From assembly GCA_001872455.1 (NCBI GenBank), contig MNXJ01000077.1, positions 1 to 64,000 on the forward strand: a DNA stretch of 64,000 nt, written 5' to 3'. The position numbers and the translations under genes are program-made. The notes beneath the pieces were generated by a model. The model was not told the origin of the DNA. It was given only the letters and a program-made list of their open reading frames with translations, and ran no database searches. Source of the stretch: Anaerolineae bacterium CG2_30_57_67. Its GTDB lineage: Bacteria; Chloroflexota; Anaerolineae; Anaerolineales; Villigracilaceae. Positions 1,100-25,449 of this stretch are shown here, piece by piece; positions within the stretch are counted from its first letter, which is position 1; each line of letters opens with the position of its first letter.

Positions 1100-2341
1100 A
1101 TGAAAACCCATCTTCTCCTCTCTTTTCTCACCCTCCCTTTTCTCTTCGCCTGCGCCCCGCGACAAATTCCCGTCACCGTGGCCGCGCCCACGCTGGTGAC
1201 GGCTGCCCCCGCGCCGGTTGATTCTGCGACCCGCGCGCCCAAGCCAACGCCTGAAATTTTAACCGCGCCGGTCACTGCTGCCGCCAACCTGCCCAACCCG
1301 GCCAGTGCGGTCTGGGTCGAAATTGCCAGCGGACTCAATCATCCCACCGTCATCAGCGCCGCCGGGGATGGGCTGGGACGCTTGTTCATCCTGGAACAGC
1401 GCGGCGCGATTCGCGTCTGGCAGGACGGAAACCTTTTGCCCGACCCGTTTCTGGATATTCACGAAATTGTCGGCAGCGACGGCTCGGAACAGGGCTTGCT
1501 TGGCCTGGCCTTTTCCCCCAAATTTACCCGCAACGGCTTCTTCTACATTAATTTTACCGACCGCGACGGCAATACGCACATCGCCCGCTATGCCCGCTCT
1601 GCCGAAAGCCCCAACCGCGCCGACGCCAATTCGCGCCTCGACCTGCTGAAAATTGACCAGCCCTACGAAAATCACAACGGCGGCGCGCTCGCTTTTGGCC
1701 CGGATGGGTTTCTTTACGTCGGCGTTGGCGATGGCGGCTCTGGCGGCGACCCGCTCGGCAACGGCCAGTCGCTCAACACCCTGCTGGGAAAAATTCTGCG
1801 GCTGGACGTCGATTCCGCCGCGCCCTATGCCGTCCCCGCCGATAACCCTTTTGGCGGCGAAATTTGGGCCTACGGCCTGCGTAATCCGTGGAAACTCGCC
1901 TTCGACCCGGCCACCGGCGACCTGTACATCGGCGATGTCGGCCAGGGCGATTGGGAGGAAGTGGACTTTTTGCCCGCCGGAACGCCCGGCGGCGCGAATT
2001 TTGGCTGGAGTTTAATGGAAGCGCGTCACCCCTTCAACGGCACGGATTCTGCCGAACTGACCGCGCCCGTTGCCGAATATTCTCACAGTGACGGCTGTTC
2101 CGTCACCGGCGGCGCGGTTTATCGTGGGGCGATGCCCGCCTGGCAGGGCGTCTACCTGTACGGCGATTTCTGCTCTGGCACGGTCTGGGGTTTACTGCGC
2201 GCTGGCGATTCCTGGCTGAACGCGCCGCTGTACCGGACGAGTTTTGGCATCAGCGTTTTTGGGCAGGACGAAAACGGCGAAATTTACCTGGCCGATTATT
2301 CCGCCGGGCGGCTCTACCGGCTGGAAGCGCCCCGCCCATGA
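1100..2341 (+). CDS. PQQ-dependent sugar dehydrogenase-like lipoprotein (GSDH family)
   Basis: A 413-residue secreted lipoprotein. The signal peptide ends in a lipobox (LFAC, Cys18) and is followed by a Pro/Ala-rich linker to about residue 70. The rest is a six-bladed soluble glucose/sorbosone dehydrogenase propeller, recognisable from GLGRLFILEQRGAIRVW, EQGLLGLAFSP, NHNGGALAFGPDGFLYVGVG, YGLRNPWKLAFDP and GGAVYRG. Family members oxidise aldose sugars at the cell surface using PQQ; the substrate here is unknown and no PQQ synthesis gene is nearby. The stop overlaps the recJ start (ATGA), so the two are translationally coupled. The ribosome-binding site is weak. Confidence 0.9.
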   Translation: MKTHLLLSFLTLPFLFACAPRQIPVTVAAPTLVTAAPAPVDSATRAPKPTPEILTAPVTAAANLPNPASAVWVEIASGLNHPTVISAAGDGLGRLFILEQRGAIRVWQDGNLLPDPFLDIHEIVGSDGSEQGLLGLAFSPKFTRNGFFYINFTDRDGNTHIARYARSAESPNRADANSRLDLLKIDQPYENHNGGALAFGPDGFLYVGVGDGGSGGDPLGNGQSLNTLLGKILRLDVDSAAPYAVPADNPFGGEIWAYGLRNPWKLAFDPATGDLYIGDVGQGDWEEVDFLPAGTPGGANFGWSLMEARHPFNGTDSAELTAPVAEYSHSDGCSVTGGAVYRGAMPAWQGVYLYGDFCSGTVWGLLRAGDSWLNAPLYRTSFGISVFGQDENGEIYLADYSAGRLYRLEAPRP

Positions 2342-4062
2342 GCGAACAACATTCCAAACGCTGGCTAGTCAGCGACCCGCTTTCCGCCGCCGCCAGCCAA
2401 CAGTTAAACGGCTTTCCGCTCGCCCTACAGGGGATTCTCTTCAGCCGCGGCTATGCCAGCCACGAAGACGCGCGCCGCTTTCTGGCCGCCGAAGTCGCTT
2501 TCGACACATCGCCCTGGCAAATGAAGGACATGCGCCGCGCGGTGGAACGCATCGCCCGCGCGGTTCAGCGGGGAGAAAAAATCGTCATCTACGGCGATTA
2601 CGACGTGGACGGCGTGACCGCCACCGTTTTGCTGGTCGAAGCCCTGCGCGCGCTGGGCGGCAGCGTCAGCGAGTACATCCCCAACCGCTTCGACGAAGGC
2701 TACGGCCTGAACAACGAAGCCCTCAGCCTGCTGAAAGCCGGGGGCGCGGCGCTCGTCATCAGCGTGGATTGCGGCATCCGCTCGCCTGCCGAGGCCGAAC
2801 ACGCCCGCGCCATCGCCCTCGACCTGATTATCAGCGACCACCACGAACCAGCGGGCGAAATCCCCAACGCTTATGCCGTCCTCAATCCCAAACAGCCCGG
2901 CGACGACTACCCCGAAAAATACCTGGCCGGGGTGGGCATCGCCTACAAAATTGCCGAGGCGCTCTACGAAACCCTCCAATCGGACAGCGGGAAAATCGGT
3001 GAACCGGAAAACCTGAAAAACCTGCTCGACCTGGTCGCTCTCGGCACTGTCGCCGACCTGGCCCCGCTCAACGGCGAAAATCGTGCGCTGGTGCGCGGCG
3101 GATTGCGCCAACTGCGGCAGGGCGCGCGTCAGGGGTTGGTTTCGCTGGCGGCGGTTGCCAAAATCAGCCTGACAAAAGTCACCGCCATGGATATCGGCTT
3201 CGGCCTCGGCCCGCGCATTAACGCCGCCGGTCGGCTGGATACCGCGCTCGATTCCTACCGCCTGCTGATTAGCCGCGACATCGGCGAAACCGGTCTGCTT
3301 GCCCAAAAACTGGATGGGCAGAACCGCGAGCGGCAGACTCTCACCCGTGAGATTCAAACCCGCGCCGAAACGCTGGCGCTGGCTGAAGATTCTTCCCCGC
3401 TGATTCTGTTCGCCGTTGACCCGCAGTTTAACCCCGGTGTGGTCGGTCTCGCTGCCGCGCGCCTGGCCGAGCGCTACTACCGCCCGGCGATTGTCGGCCA
3501 TGTGGACGGTGAAACAACGCGCTGTTCCTGCCGCTCCATCGCCGAATTTCACATCACCAAAGCCCTCGACGAATGCGCCGACTTGCTGCTCCGCCACGGC
3601 GGGCACGCCGCCGCCGCCGGTTTCACCCTTGCCAATGAAAATTTTCCTGCGCTGAAGGAGCGCCTGCGCCAAATCGCCGCCCGTGAACTGACCGGCCTCG
3701 ACCTGCGCCCAACCCTGCGCGCCGACGCCGAAGTGACATTCTCCGACCTGACCTTTGACCTGCTCAAAAAACTTGACTACCTGGAGCCAACCGGCTACGG
3801 CAACCCCGGCGCGGTTTTCGTCGCCCGCAGCGCGCGGATTGTTTCCAAGCGCACTGTCGGCGCAGACGCCAAACATCTCAAACTGACCCTCGGCGATGGC
3901 AGAATCACCTTCGACGCCATCGCCTTCCGCTTTGGCGAAGCCGCCGCCCGCCTGCCGGAGCGCGTGGATGTGATGTTCACGCTGGAAAACAACGAATACA
4001 ACGGCCAAAATCGCCTGCAACTCAACGTCAAAGACCTCAAACCAGCGGGAACGCCCGATTAG
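2338..4062 (+). CDS. recJ: Single-stranded-DNA-specific exonuclease RecJ
   Basis: A 574-residue RecJ, the 5'-3' ssDNA exonuclease of recombinational and mismatch repair. The DHH phosphoesterase motifs are present: DYDVDG at residues 87-92, the SVDCG motif near 143, and ISDHHEP with DHH at 167-169. The DHHA1 motif HGGHAAAAGF lies near residue 420, and an OB-like C-terminal region follows. The length fits bacterial RecJ. The start overlaps the preceding stop by four bases. Confidence 0.95.
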   Translation: MSEQHSKRWLVSDPLSAAASQQLNGFPLALQGILFSRGYASHEDARRFLAAEVAFDTSPWQMKDMRRAVERIARAVQRGEKIVIYGDYDVDGVTATVLLVEALRALGGSVSEYIPNRFDEGYGLNNEALSLLKAGGAALVISVDCGIRSPAEAEHARAIALDLIISDHHEPAGEIPNAYAVLNPKQPGDDYPEKYLAGVGIAYKIAEALYETLQSDSGKIGEPENLKNLLDLVALGTVADLAPLNGENRALVRGGLRQLRQGARQGLVSLAAVAKISLTKVTAMDIGFGLGPRINAAGRLDTALDSYRLLISRDIGETGLLAQKLDGQNRERQTLTREIQTRAETLALAEDSSPLILFAVDPQFNPGVVGLAAARLAERYYRPAIVGHVDGETTRCSCRSIAEFHITKALDECADLLLRHGGHAAAAGFTLANENFPALKERLRQIAARELTGLDLRPTLRADAEVTFSDLTFDLLKKLDYLEPTGYGNPGAVFVARSARIVSKRTVGADAKHLKLTLGDGRITFDAIAFRFGEAAARLPERVDVMFTLENNEYNGQNRLQLNVKDLKPAGTPD

Positions 4063-4130
4063 CCAAAAATCGGGAGGCGTTGGAGCGGGTTTAAAAAATC
4101 CCCTTTATCCCTTTCATTCTGTTAGCCTCC

Positions 4131-4778
4131 ATGCCTACCCTCGAATTTCACTGCCACACCCTCTACTCTAAAGACAGCCTGCTGCGCCCCGCCGATTTGC
4201 TGGCCGCCGCCCGCCGCAAAGGGTTGGACAAAGTGGTGATTACCGACCACAATTCGATTGCCGGGGCGCTGGAAGCACAGCGGCTGGACCCGGCGCGCGT
4301 CATCGTCGGCGAGGAAATTCTCACCAGCGCGGGCGAAATTTTGGCGGCTTTCGTGCGCGAGGAAATCCCCGCGCGCCTGCCTCCGTTGGAAGTGATTCGC
4401 CGCCTGCGAGCGCAGGGCGCCTTCATCAGCGTTTCGCACCCCTTCGACCCGCGCCGCGGCTGGCAGTTTTCTGCCCTGCAGGCGATTCTGCCGCTGGTGG
4501 ACGCGCTGGAAATTTTCAATTCCCGCTGCATGACGAATGAACCCAATCGCCGCGCCGAGGCGTGCGCCCGCCAAAATGGCCTGCTCGCCACCGTCGGCTC
4601 GGACGCGCACGTCGCCTGGGAGTTGGGTCGCGCCACGCTGGCGCTGGCCGAATTCAGTGACGCCGAGAGTCTCAAGGCGGTTCTCCCCGCCGCGCGCTTC
4701 CATACCCGGCTTTCCTCGCCGCTGATTCATCTCACTTCGCGCTATGCGGTGATATACAAAAAAATGGCGCGGGATTAA
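4131..4778 (+). CDS. PHP-domain metal-dependent phosphoesterase
   Basis: A 215-residue PHP (polymerase and histidinol phosphatase) domain protein. Metal-binding signatures are visible: FHCHTLYSKDS at the N-terminus, VVITDHNSIAGALEA, then SHPFDPRRGW and GSDAHVAWELG. Stand-alone PHP proteins hydrolyse phosphoesters such as 3',5'-nucleotide bisphosphates or nucleotides; the substrate here cannot be told. It follows recJ by 68 bp on the same strand, and its stop codon lies inside the hairpin of the shared terminator. Confidence 0.88.
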   Translation: MPTLEFHCHTLYSKDSLLRPADLLAAARRKGLDKVVITDHNSIAGALEAQRLDPARVIVGEEILTSAGEILAAFVREEIPARLPPLEVIRRLRAQGAFISVSHPFDPRRGWQFSALQAILPLVDALEIFNSRCMTNEPNRRAEACARQNGLLATVGSDAHVAWELGRATLALAEFSDAESLKAVLPAARFHTRLSSPLIHLTSRYAVIYKKMARD

Positions 4779-4795
4779 TCCCGCGCCATTTTTTT
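4760..4795. terminator. Bidirectional rho-independent terminator
   Basis: A perfect palindrome with stem ATGGCGCGGGAT/ATCCCGCGCCAT flanked by A and T runs lies between convergent genes. The stop codons of both neighbouring genes lie within or at the edge of the hairpin, so it can end transcription from both sides. Confidence 0.9.
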
Positions 4796-5963
4796 ACCGG
4801 AGATAGGTGGTTTTTCCACCGCCGCTGCGTTTGGGTTCGGGCGGTATGGCGCGCGGTTCCAGCAGCCCCCAGCGGCTGGCGCCCAGATAAAGAATTTCCA
4901 GAATCAATTCAGTGTAAGAAATTCCATCCGCGTTGCAAATCAGGCACAGGTCCGAAAAATCGGGCGTGATGCCGGGCAGGGGATTGATTTCGATTAGACA
5001 GGGAGTGCCCTTTTCGTCCAGCCGAATATCCACCCGTGAAATATCCAGCGCGCCCAGCACGACATGCGCGCGCCAGGCGTAATGCTGAAGTTTTTTCATC
5101 AACTCTGGTTCAACTTCCGCCGGACAGTAGTAGCCGGGCGCGCCTTCTGCGCCAATGTCTATGGATTTGGCAGCGTGGCTGTACACGCCGGGCGTCACCG
5201 AGCGCGTGCTGTCGAGTTCGACGATGGGAAAGCGGTGAAAGCCATCGGGGTTGTACCATTCCGGGTGGCGCGAGTAGCGCTTGGCGTCGGGGCGTCCCAT
5301 AACGGCGACGGTGAATTCGCGCCCTGGCAGGAAGTGTTCCACCAGGGCGGGCTGGCGATACATGTTAATAATCCAGCGCACGCGCTCGCGCAGTTCTTCC
5401 ACGGTATAGACGATGGCGCGCGCGTCTACACCCATGCCAGTGCCTTCGCGCGCCGGTTTGACAAAAAGTGGAAAGCGCAGTTCGGGGCGCAGGGATTCGT
5501 CACCACTGGTAAATTCCTGAAAAGGAGCAACAGGCAAGCGCCGGTCGCGCCAGATGCGTTTGGTGAGAGTTTTGTCGAGCGCGATGGCGTTGGTCTGCAC
5601 GCGCGAGTGGGTGTAGGGGATTTGGAGCATTTCGAGCAGGGCCGGGGTTTGCGCTTCGCGCGCGTCGCCGCCGAGTCCTTCGGCAATGTTGAAGCAAATA
5701 TCGGGCTGAATTTCTTTCAGGGCGTAGGGCAGGTTTTGGTCGGCGGGAATGAAAGCTGTCGAATGACCGTCACTTTCAATAACGCGCTGAATGGCCTGAA
5801 TGGTTTCGATGTGGTCATAATCCGCCAGGGCGTCAGCGGGAATATCCGCCTGCGGCGGCAGGCTTTCGTCCTTGGTATTGGCGAGTACGGCAACCCGCCA
5901 GGGTTTTGCTGGACGGACAATACTGGGAGGCTTTTCAGTCTCCGGTTGCGAGGGTGTGGCCAT
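4794..5963 (-). CDS. D-alanine-D-alanine ligase family ATP-grasp protein
   Basis: A 389-residue ATP-grasp protein related to D-Ala-D-Ala ligases. An N-terminal Rossmann-like domain (VAVLANTKDES, then PDICFNIAEGLGG) precedes the ATP-binding core (FPLFVKPAREGTGMGVDA) and the metal-binding end SRVDIRLDE...CLIEINPLPGITP. I chose the ATG at 5961-5963 because AAGGAG stands 7 nt before it; a longer reading to 6092 lacks such a site. The family ligates D-amino acids or other small carboxylates, and many stand-alone paralogues are not the housekeeping Ddl. No mur genes are nearby, so the substrate is uncertain. Confidence 0.85.
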   Translation of the reverse strand: MATPSQPETEKPPSIVRPAKPWRVAVLANTKDESLPPQADIPADALADYDHIETIQAIQRVIESDGHSTAFIPADQNLPYALKEIQPDICFNIAEGLGGDAREAQTPALLEMLQIPYTHSRVQTNAIALDKTLTKRIWRDRRLPVAPFQEFTSGDESLRPELRFPLFVKPAREGTGMGVDARAIVYTVEELRERVRWIINMYRQPALVEHFLPGREFTVAVMGRPDAKRYSRHPEWYNPDGFHRFPIVELDSTRSVTPGVYSHAAKSIDIGAEGAPGYYCPAEVEPELMKKLQHYAWRAHVVLGALDISRVDIRLDEKGTPCLIEINPLPGITPDFSDLCLICNADGISYTELILEILYLGASRWGLLEPRAIPPEPKRSGGGKTTYLR

Positions 5964-22594: not shown

Positions 22595-22725
22595 TAAATC
22601 CGACTCGTTACGCCAGCCCGAAGGGCTTCGGTGTACTGAGGCAGGGCTTCCAGCCCGCCGAACCAAGTGGAAAAACAGGCGGCTGAGCAGTTACCAGCGC
22701 GACATGAATGTCGCGGCACACAAGA
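22595..22725. repeat. Hairpin-module repeat, copy 1
   Basis: Contains AAATCCGACTCGTTACGCCAGCCCGAAGGGCTTC, broken here for description into the modules AAATCCGACT, AGCCCGAAGGGCT and the complement of GGCGGGCTGGAAGCC. Related modules occur at 40451-40627 and 56046-56204. The tail holds the GCGACATGAATGTCGC hairpin (22699-22714), seen also in the MITE at 289-304. It occupies the gap before the RAM-domain gene. Confidence 0.6.
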
Positions 22726-22739
22726 TTGGAAGGAGAAAA

Positions 22740-22973
22740 ATGATGAAATCTTACGTACTCATCAAAGTCCGCACCGGAGAAATCAAGGAAGTCGTCAAGC
22801 AACTGCGCAAAATGCCCAACGTCAAAAGCGCGGAAATGACTTTTGGCCCCTACGACGTGATTGCCGTTTTGGAACACGCCGACCTGAACAAACTGGGCCT
22901 GCTGATTGCCGCAGAAATTCAGCCCATCCCCGGCATTGAGCAGACCCTGACCTGCCTGGCGGTGGAGGTGTAG
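22740..22973 (+). CDS. Stand-alone RAM (Lrp/AsnC ligand-binding) domain protein
   Basis: A 77-residue protein that is only the alpha/beta RAM domain of Lrp/AsnC regulators: SYVLIKVRTGEIKEVVKQL, VKSAEMTFGPYDVIAVLE, and a C-terminal strand TLTCLAVEV. There is no helix-turn-helix. Such small proteins bind amino acids or other metabolites and form ring oligomers; the role here is unknown. GGAAGGAG precedes the ATG pair. The gene ends just before a strong terminator. Confidence 0.88.
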   Translation: MMKSYVLIKVRTGEIKEVVKQLRKMPNVKSAEMTFGPYDVIAVLEHADLNKLGLLIAAEIQPIPGIEQTLTCLAVEV

Positions 22974-23136: not shown

Positions 23137-25449
23137 TCAGAGTTCAGGGGTAGGAGAAATGGGAGCAACACAAAACCGAAAACCGCCGTAGTCGAAACGG
23201 TAGTTCGGAAGGTTCCAGCGACGGACCGCGGCGCGCACGTAGTGACGATCGTTGTAGAACGAGCCGCCGCGCAGAACGCGGAAGCCCGAATCTTGCTCCG
23301 CTTCACGGCCATCGTCCGGCTGGTAGGGGTACGGCTTATACAGGCTGTGCGTCCACTCCCACACGTTGCCGCTCATGTCCACGCAGCCATAGGGGCTGTC
23401 GCCCTGCGGCGAATACTGCCCAACCGGCGTGGTGTCTTTGACGTTCATGTTAAAGTTACAGCGTTTTGGATTGGGGTCGTCGTTGCCCCAGGGGAACAGG
23501 TTACCAGCCGTACCGCGCGCAGCTTTTTCCCATTCGGCCTCGGTTGGCAGGCGCAAGACAAACGCCGTCGAAGCCAATGGGCAGGCGGCAGCAAAGTTGC
23601 CAGCCCGAAACTCCCGCTGCAGCCAGGCAGCGCAGGCCTGCGCGTCCTCCCACGAGACCTGGGTAACCGGGTGATTTTGCTTATTTTTCACGCCTTTTTT
23701 ATCGCCGCGCGGGTCGTCCCAGCGCGCGCCCCGGGTTTCTTCCCATTTACTACCCGTATAAACGTAGCCGCTGCCTGTTTTTTCGGCAGTCGTCTGGTAG
23801 CCCGGGTTGGCTCGCATGAAGGCGGCAAATTGCGCCACCGTCAGCGGGGTGACGGCCATCCAGTATTCCGGCAGAGCAATGGCGCTTTGCGGTTTTTCGT
23901 CATCGGATGATTCCTTGTCGGCAGCGCTGCTGCCCATCAGGAAAGAACCAGCCGGGATGCGCACAAACTCAATGCCCGCCAGGGTAAAGCGGTTGGCAGG
24001 CGGCGGGGCGGCTTCTGCCGTTATAGCCTGCGCCGCGCCGCGGCGGGTTGGCTCTTTGCCAGCCAGCAACTCGCCGCCGAAAGCGGGCTCGTTTTCAGCG
24101 GGCGGCGTCTCGGGCTGGGCCAGGTCTGCCAGGTAAAGCAGGCTTTGCAGGCTGTCGCGGCGGGTCAGTTTGGCTTTGTAGGGTTCAATTTCCAGCAGCA
24201 CGCGCAGCATTTCGTCGTTCAGGTCGGCTTTAAAACTGGCGGCGGCTTCCAAATCGCCATGCGCCCACAGAAAGGCATTCTCAAAGAGTTCCTGAATGAT
24301 TTTGTAATGGCCCTCGCTGGTAGGTTTGATGCGGTACAGGCGTTCACGGAAGCGGCTGGAGGCGCGCATCAACACTTCCCAAGAGACGTAGACGTCGTAC
24401 TCCACCTTGAGGCCGTCGCCGCTGTTTTTCCACATCGCCCAGCGCAGGTTGACATCGTTGAGGAAGGTTTTAACCTTACGCGGGTTGCCTCCCGCGCCTT
24501 CGGCCACTGTGCGCCAGTGTTTGCTGAGGGGTGAATCTTTGGGGAGTTGCTGGCGGACGAATCCATCCATTTTATCGGTCGAAATGGGCGGCAGGTTGAA
24601 GCGCAGTTGAATAATTTTTTCGAGGTAGTCTTCGGCGTTTTCGCCGGTGACGCTTTTTTCGCTGTAATATTTTTTTACGGCGTCTTGCACAATACCCGCA
24701 TCGGCGCCCAGCACAAAAACGCAGCCGGTTTTATCCACGAACAATTTTATCGCTTCCAGCACCTGAACAGTTTTCTCGGGCATACAGCGGTCGAGGTCGT
24801 CAATGAAAATTACCAGCGCGCCGCGCTTTTCGTCAATTTTTCTTTCAGGCGCGCCGTGCACCCACAAAGCCAGCAGGCGTTCAAAAGCCTCGTCAAAATG
24901 GTCAAAAAAAGCGCTGTGCGATTTGATGGGTGAAATATCTTTGTGTTTTTGGGGGTCAAACTGCAGGCCCAGCACGCCAAAATCCACCTTCAGGCTGTTG
25001 AGAAACATGGCGGGGAAGTCGTAGCCGGGCTGTTCGGGGTCTTCCAAGCCAACCCTGATTTTTGTCAGAAAGCGCTCTTTTTTCATGGCCTGGACAATCA
25101 CGCGCACCAGCGCGGCCAGCAGTTCCTCTTCCTGGCGATATTTCCAGGCGTTGAACCAGACCGTTTTGCAGGCGCGGAACCGGCCGGGAGCAGTTTTTCC
25201 GGCAAAAGGGTTTTCCCCGCCGCTGGCGGCCTGGTCGAGCATTTTGCGGACGCGCTTCAGCAGGGTGGTTTTGCCGCTGCCCCAGGCGCCGCTGACGCCA
25301 ATCGTCAGCGGGGTGCGGGTATTTTTATCGGCCACCAGCCGGGCGAGGGTCACGGCAAAATCGTCAAAATGGAAATAGGCCGGGTCGTCGTCGCGCAGCG
25401 GCTCGTCATGCAAAATCAGCGGGGTTTCCAGGTCACGTTTTTCGGGCAT
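23137..25449 (-). CDS. KAP-family P-loop NTPase fused to an FGE-sulfatase/C-type-lectin-like domain
   Basis: A 770-residue fusion. Residues 30-330 are a KAP NTPase: Walker A GAWGSGKT (54-61), Walker B ALVIFIDDLDRC (211-222), and the typical HFDEAFERLL and EKIIQLRF stretches. A helical part and Pro/Ala linker (to about 485) lead to an FGE-sulfatase domain (about 490-765): MVRIPAG-type start, PVTQVSWEDAQACAAWL, LRLPTEAEWEKAARG, DMSGNVWEWT and VLRGGSFYNDRHYVRAAVRR. The two redox cysteines of active formylglycine-generating enzymes are absent from that last segment, so it is probably a binding domain. KAP proteins include phage-exclusion factors (PifA). The likely role is a sensor or defence NTPase; the function is unproven. 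No signal peptide; the obvious KAP membrane insertions are not seen. Confidence 0.88.
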   Translation of the reverse strand: MPEKRDLETPLILHDEPLRDDDPAYFHFDDFAVTLARLVADKNTRTPLTIGVSGAWGSGKTTLLKRVRKMLDQAASGGENPFAGKTAPGRFRACKTVWFNAWKYRQEEELLAALVRVIVQAMKKERFLTKIRVGLEDPEQPGYDFPAMFLNSLKVDFGVLGLQFDPQKHKDISPIKSHSAFFDHFDEAFERLLALWVHGAPERKIDEKRGALVIFIDDLDRCMPEKTVQVLEAIKLFVDKTGCVFVLGADAGIVQDAVKKYYSEKSVTGENAEDYLEKIIQLRFNLPPISTDKMDGFVRQQLPKDSPLSKHWRTVAEGAGGNPRKVKTFLNDVNLRWAMWKNSGDGLKVEYDVYVSWEVLMRASSRFRERLYRIKPTSEGHYKIIQELFENAFLWAHGDLEAAASFKADLNDEMLRVLLEIEPYKAKLTRRDSLQSLLYLADLAQPETPPAENEPAFGGELLAGKEPTRRGAAQAITAEAAPPPANRFTLAGIEFVRIPAGSFLMGSSAADKESSDDEKPQSAIALPEYWMAVTPLTVAQFAAFMRANPGYQTTAEKTGSGYVYTGSKWEETRGARWDDPRGDKKGVKNKQNHPVTQVSWEDAQACAAWLQREFRAGNFAAACPLASTAFVLRLPTEAEWEKAARGTAGNLFPWGNDDPNPKRCNFNMNVKDTTPVGQYSPQGDSPYGCVDMSGNVWEWTHSLYKPYPYQPDDGREAEQDSGFRVLRGGSFYNDRHYVRAAVRRWNLPNYRFDYGGFRFCVAPISPTPEL

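Follow-up and report, generated by a model that had tools for sequence, protein, structure and literature searches.

The window, which is the whole stretch of 64,000 nucleotides that was analysed (contig MNXJ01000077.1 of an Anaerolineae genome, here G000; other loci are labelled L and other genomes G), holds on its minus strand at positions 23137-25449 an intact open reading frame for a single 770-aa fusion of a KAP NTPase with an FGE-sulfatase domain. The gene and its features are:

23137..25449 (-), KAP-FGE gene, single intact open reading frame of 770 aa
24445..25365 (-), KAP_NTPase domain, residues 29-335, without transmembrane insert (Pfam)
25267..25290 (-), Walker A motif GAWGSGKT, residues 54-61 (sequence)
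24784..24810 (-), Walker B motif IFIDDLDRC, residues 214-222 (sequence)
23980..24432 (-), helical region and low-confidence linker from KAP to FGE, about residues 340-490 (AlphaFold2)
23173..23970 (-), FGE-sulfatase domain with C-type-lectin fold, residues 494-759 (Pfam, alignment, fold match)
23185..23256 (-), core of the DGR variable region (VR), residues 732-755 (NNY fingerprint at 12/13 positions; homology to template/variable region pairs)
23176..23184 (-), GGTTTTCGG at the VR 3' end (nucleotide motif that recurs in spite of codon usage)

The two Walker motifs, which an earlier note made from the sequence alone had placed within one 770-residue chain, were found as described, and the profile search proposed there recovered both domains far above the Pfam cut-offs, with KAP_NTPase (PF07693) at E 6.5e-42 and 144 bits versus a cut-off of 20 for residues 29-335 and FGE-sulfatase (PF03781) at E 9e-58 and 196 bits versus a cut-off of 23.3 for residues 494-759. 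The window gene product is the only KAP protein of G000, while three FGE-domain proteins are encoded in this genome. Close by on the plus strand, positions 22704-22973 code for an 89-aa protein that consists of an AsnC/Lrp ligand-binding domain alone, without the DNA-binding part.

Across 33 homologues, residues G54, W56, G57, G59, K60 and T61 of Walker A and D217, D218, L219, D220 and R221 of Walker B are invariant, and equally W98, F99, A101, W102 and Y104 of the VWFNAWKY region in the homologue alignment. The transmembrane insert is an optional feature present in many KAPs, not all, and the stretch from Walker A to Walker B contains, on inspection of the sequence, no hydrophobic segment; an insert at residues 131-180 was modelled with low confidence. 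Structure prediction by AlphaFold2, another of the proposed checks, gave confident KAP and FGE domains (mean pLDDT of the KAP domain 81.8) with a flexible linker between them, helices at residues 345-443 and pLDDT below 50 at residues 446-483. In a Foldseek comparison of the KAP model with the PDB, RdrA of RADAR and ORC/Cdc6 ranked at the top and the NRC4 resistosome lower in the list. These matches are partial, with a TM of about 0.4 of the query, and support no more than the general view of the KAP module as an AAA+/STAND-like switch, possibly with the ability to form rings. RdrA (PDB 8hr8), the best fold match, is a ring-forming defence ATPase, from which the window protein differs with about 14-15% identity over the partial match and by the lack of RdrB.

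The fold matches of the C-terminal domain comprise CalU17 (TMt 0.75), FGE and TvpA (PDB 2y3c). Aligned with the Streptomyces FGE (PDB 6muj and 2q17), the window protein reads RVLRGGSFYNDRHY---VRAAVRR; the first active-site cysteine of FGE is replaced by asparagine, and the second has no cysteine counterpart in a loop that is three residues shorter. Since the aligned stretch RGGSFYNDRHY contains no cysteine, the protein is not a formylglycine-generating enzyme, and the reading of the domain as non-catalytic, which the earlier note had based on the missing redox cysteines, holds with both of them absent. That the domain might nevertheless be an active formylglycine-generating or related oxidase, as the strong profile and the fold match to FGE and CalU17 could suggest, is hardly conceivable and was rejected, as both catalytic cysteines are absent and the catalytic positions fall inside the region that is randomised by DGRs in relatives.

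Some match to the window protein, mostly to its FGE part, was found in 139 of the 152 genomes of the family, with about 15-20 full KAP-FGE relatives in this set. The proposed survey of homologues showed the same fusion to recur in numerous Anaerolineae, with more distant occurrences in Latescibacterota and Gemmatimonadota. In the KAP tree, the window protein and L151 are sisters (97/93) within a Chloroflexota clade with 98/99 support, and the closest full-length relative is L148 (53%). In three Latescibacterota/Gemmatimonadota loci (L016, L018 and L021), a short conserved gene, HTH-like by eye in L018, overlaps the start of the KAP-FGE gene and is possibly a regulator or partner. A phage origin was rejected, with 0 phage records matching at E 1e-20 and viral contigs matching the KAP part only, and equally a plasmid origin, with plasmids covering a single domain only among the matches listed.

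The C-terminal region of these relatives is the target of DGRs. In L149, the KAP-FGE gene (1683-3944) is followed by an RT (4041-5087) with the DGR motif IGNLTSQ, an Avd (5080-5433) matching NF033474 (above cut-off) and PF22296, and a template (TR) at about 5477; a complete DGR arranged in the same way lies directly downstream of the KAP-FGE gene in L157. Between TR and VR, mismatches affect 20 of 30 TR adenines and 0 of 69 other bases in L149 (p 7e-14) and 14 of 29 adenines and 0 of 70 other bases in L157 (p 2e-9). In L148, a TR 233 bp downstream of the gene shows 13/17 mismatches at A versus 0/58 at non-A over 75 bases; in its 3' part, the sequences reveal a deleted codon and a single non-A mismatch. 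The TR has no adjacent RT, and a DGR-type RT is found elsewhere in the L148 genome. In L032, the DGR sits between an FGE protein and the KAP-FGE gene. At the family level, adenine-specific TR/VR differences together with RT and Avd in cis (L149, L157) thus identify DGR variable proteins, and the hypervariable C-termini for which the earlier note had recommended to search proved to be DGR variable regions. In L155, the contig terminates (L155:1) precisely where the variable region begins with RGGSF, as though hypervariable or repeated sequence had broken the assembly. As a binding face is the only part for which DGR mutagenesis would make sense, the FGE domain is considered a binding module. 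A DGR variable protein of the same C-type-lectin/FGE fold is TvpA, the Treponema denticola variable protein 1 (PDB 2y3c), which, however, has no NTPase and is 22% identical in the Foldseek alignment.

The window VR is homologous to the TR/VR pairs of L148, L149 and L157. Because the template codes for asparagine (AAY) at 13 positions in relatives, a DGR could yield only NNY codons there, and the window VR carries this fingerprint of adenine mutagenesis with NNY at 12 of the 13 positions, the exception, TGG, being one A change away from AGG in the L148 TR. With an NNY background of 0.57 in the window gene, this result gives p 0.007 for a test that comprises 13 codons only, and of 699 alternative placements along the gene, 3 reach 12 NNY. 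Relatives with the template present score 11/13 (L148), 13/13 (L149) and 13/13 (L157), and L151, the sister of the window protein, 13/13; the score is 5-7/13 in non-DGR Latescibacterota/Gemmatimonadota relatives, in which the region is conserved, and 8/13 in the non-DGR relatives L159 and L009. Furthermore, GGTTTTCGG, which recurs in KAP-FGE relatives, is retained in the window VR though codon usage predicts it at 1.7%, and might be a candidate homing-initiation site; a consensus scan only indicated a hairpin-like match at 23182-23201. From these sequence features we infer that the window VR was DGR-written in the past and probably lost its element fairly recently. It is quite improbable that DGRs had never targeted the C-terminus in this lineage and that the codon pattern arose by chance: a coincidence of about 0.4-0.7% is not negligible given the post hoc choice of the test, and conserved non-NNY regions do exist in some KAP-FGE clades, but at least five members of the 98/99 clade of the window protein (L148, L149, L157, L150, L007) possess a DGR or its relics and the sister L151 displays a perfect NNY score.

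On the other hand, no RT of any type is encoded in the G000 assembly (87 contigs, 98.4% complete), no template-like sequence for the window VR was detected in this genome and a search near the window gene retrieved neither a template nor, downstream, an RT relic, so that G000 lacks the pairing of a TR with an RT within one genome by which a DGR is recognised. Continued diversification by an RT and a TR that act in trans from an unassembled genome segment or from other strains would account for this absence. Trans action and incomplete loci are on record (PMC10907252), L148 provides an example of a TR without adjacent RT in a genome that has a DGR-type RT elsewhere, the second FGE-NTPase of G000 ends near a contig edge and the assembly leaves 1.6% missing; yet no RT of any class occurs in the 98.4% that is present, and the KAP-FGE genomes G065, G102, G109 and G078 are likewise without RT, so that chance incompleteness in every one of them is unlikely. 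Diversification in trans is therefore regarded as an unlikely explanation. The second NTPase-FGE protein of G000 (contig C78, L146:218-2734, minus strand) has a weak NACHT match and an FGE domain that stops before the variable region, with the contig end 217 bp further, and is possibly a broken DGR target.

Loss of the element can be followed in relatives. In L150, which shares 95% identity with L157 in the KAP domain and has syntenic flanks, the RT after the KAP-FGE gene is reduced to its first 25 codons, MNLQNQLTTWENLWLAYSNASRGKRF being the RT start. L007 retains about 66 frameshifted RT codons at the corresponding place, L158 has no DGR at the same site as L150 and L157, and L015 carries a decayed TR. 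Together, these remnants and absences demonstrate that the cassette can vanish while the sensor gene remains open. Among 14 changed codons in the VR of L150 versus L157, 11 are non-synonymous, with dN 0.08 and dS 1.04 in the remaining gene. In the putative variable region of L116 versus L118, 2 of 11 changed codons are non-synonymous, and this region may be a fixed, conserved face under purifying selection. Whether DGR-diversified immune-type sensors have repeatedly been 'frozen', with the retroelement lost and an intact gene left with one selected specificity, of which the window would be one instance, is put forward tentatively, with somewhat less than an even chance of being correct. If true, a hypermutating receptor would have turned into a germline-fixed one.

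With respect to function, the same KAP core occurs with a C-terminal TIR replacing FGE in L013 (2635-4464), the sister to L011, and with pentapeptide repeats in L024, while the FGE module, among the FGE proteins examined in related Chloroflexota genomes, is joined to TIR, CHAT, protein kinase and NACHT domains. The genes that flank the window gene are ordinary metabolic or membrane genes. In a comparison of synteny with the same genus, the neighbouring SPFH gene had homologues at only 35-41%. Across Chloroflexota loci, no neighbour family recurs besides DGR genes, shared synteny and ordinary housekeeping genes, and a conserved partner gene outside the DGR genes was rejected, in agreement with the earlier view that the gene has no obvious partner. 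The window locus lies in no known defence island and no defence-island neighbours recur among the Chloroflexota homologues, where the earlier note had suggested looking for them. No PADLOC model describes the KAP-FGE fusion. The best NCBIfam and PADLOC match is QatA (NF041923), the KAP NTPase of the anti-phage system Qat, which the window protein matches with 150.7 bits versus the equivalog cut-off of 600, and no QatB, QatC or QatD homologues were recognised among the Pfam-scanned neighbours. PifA, a KAP NTPase of F plasmid phage exclusion (PADLOC PDLC02361), is matched with 92 bits. To our knowledge, QatA has no FGE, PifA lacks it and RdrA has no FGE domain.

These ordinary flanks and the lack of recurring defence neighbours would fit a stand-alone signalling or regulatory ATPase not involved in defence, in which FGE would serve structure or self-recognition. 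Such a role is, however, judged improbable in the light of the DGR targeting in relatives, the fusion of the FGE module to TIR, CHAT, kinase and NACHT in sister genomes, the KAP-TIR sister protein L013 and QatA and PifA as the best PADLOC/NCBIfam relatives. The domain fusions and the DGR targeting equally speak for the sensor NTPase with an FGE/C-type-lectin binding module that the earlier note had proposed, a reading of the C-terminus that stands, although its DGR origin had been missed. An NLR-like KAP ATPase sensor with an FGE/C-type-lectin tip, formerly written by a DGR but at present fixed, 'frozen' and orphaned, is thus considered the probable explanation of the window gene.

As such a sensor, the window protein would be a KAP-family ATPase switch of the cytosol that probably forms oligomers and binds through a C-terminal FGE/C-type-lectin domain, the tip of which (residues 732-755) would have been written in an ancestor by adenine-targeted mutagenic reverse transcription. 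With RT, Avd and template lost in G000, the binding specificity would be inherited unchanged. Sensing would occur by binding of a ligand to the FGE face, whereby the KAP ATPase may be released to form a ring or a complex like a resistosome and trigger a cell-autonomous defensive response. The protein may act alone, and the defence may be directed against phage. No effector domain was identified in the window protein.

KAP can substitute for STAND NTPases in DGR-associated FGS systems (Kaur et al. 2021, PMC8195603). The same replacement of STAND by KAP is stated in a second paper, in which KAP NTPases are named among DGR targets, these targets are proposed to act as antigen sensors, and incomplete DGR loci and trans activity are also described (Dore et al. 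2024, PMC10907252). With these NTPase-FGS conflict systems the window protein shares the NTPase and the C-terminal FGE/FGS targeted by DGR; it differs in that no EAD or effector domain was found N-terminally, in the lack of partner genes and in the absence of a DGR from G000. KAP-FGE DGR targets are thus already in print (PMC8195603, PMC10907252), and the orphaning together with the decay series is the new part; a limited literature search found no description of orphaned KAP-FGE genes or RT stumps.

A receptor that no longer changes and yet remains intact would be expected to have a ligand that is stable and useful, and such a receptor lends itself to a direct test. We know of no ligand of a DGR-diversified NTPase sensor, and such ligands are elusive, to some extent owing to the continual change of the binding face. 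The orthologous trio L157, L150 and L158 offers a natural before/after comparison of mutator loss. In the first two of these loci, a segment of about 770 bp is placed differently, upstream of the gene in L157 and downstream in L150.
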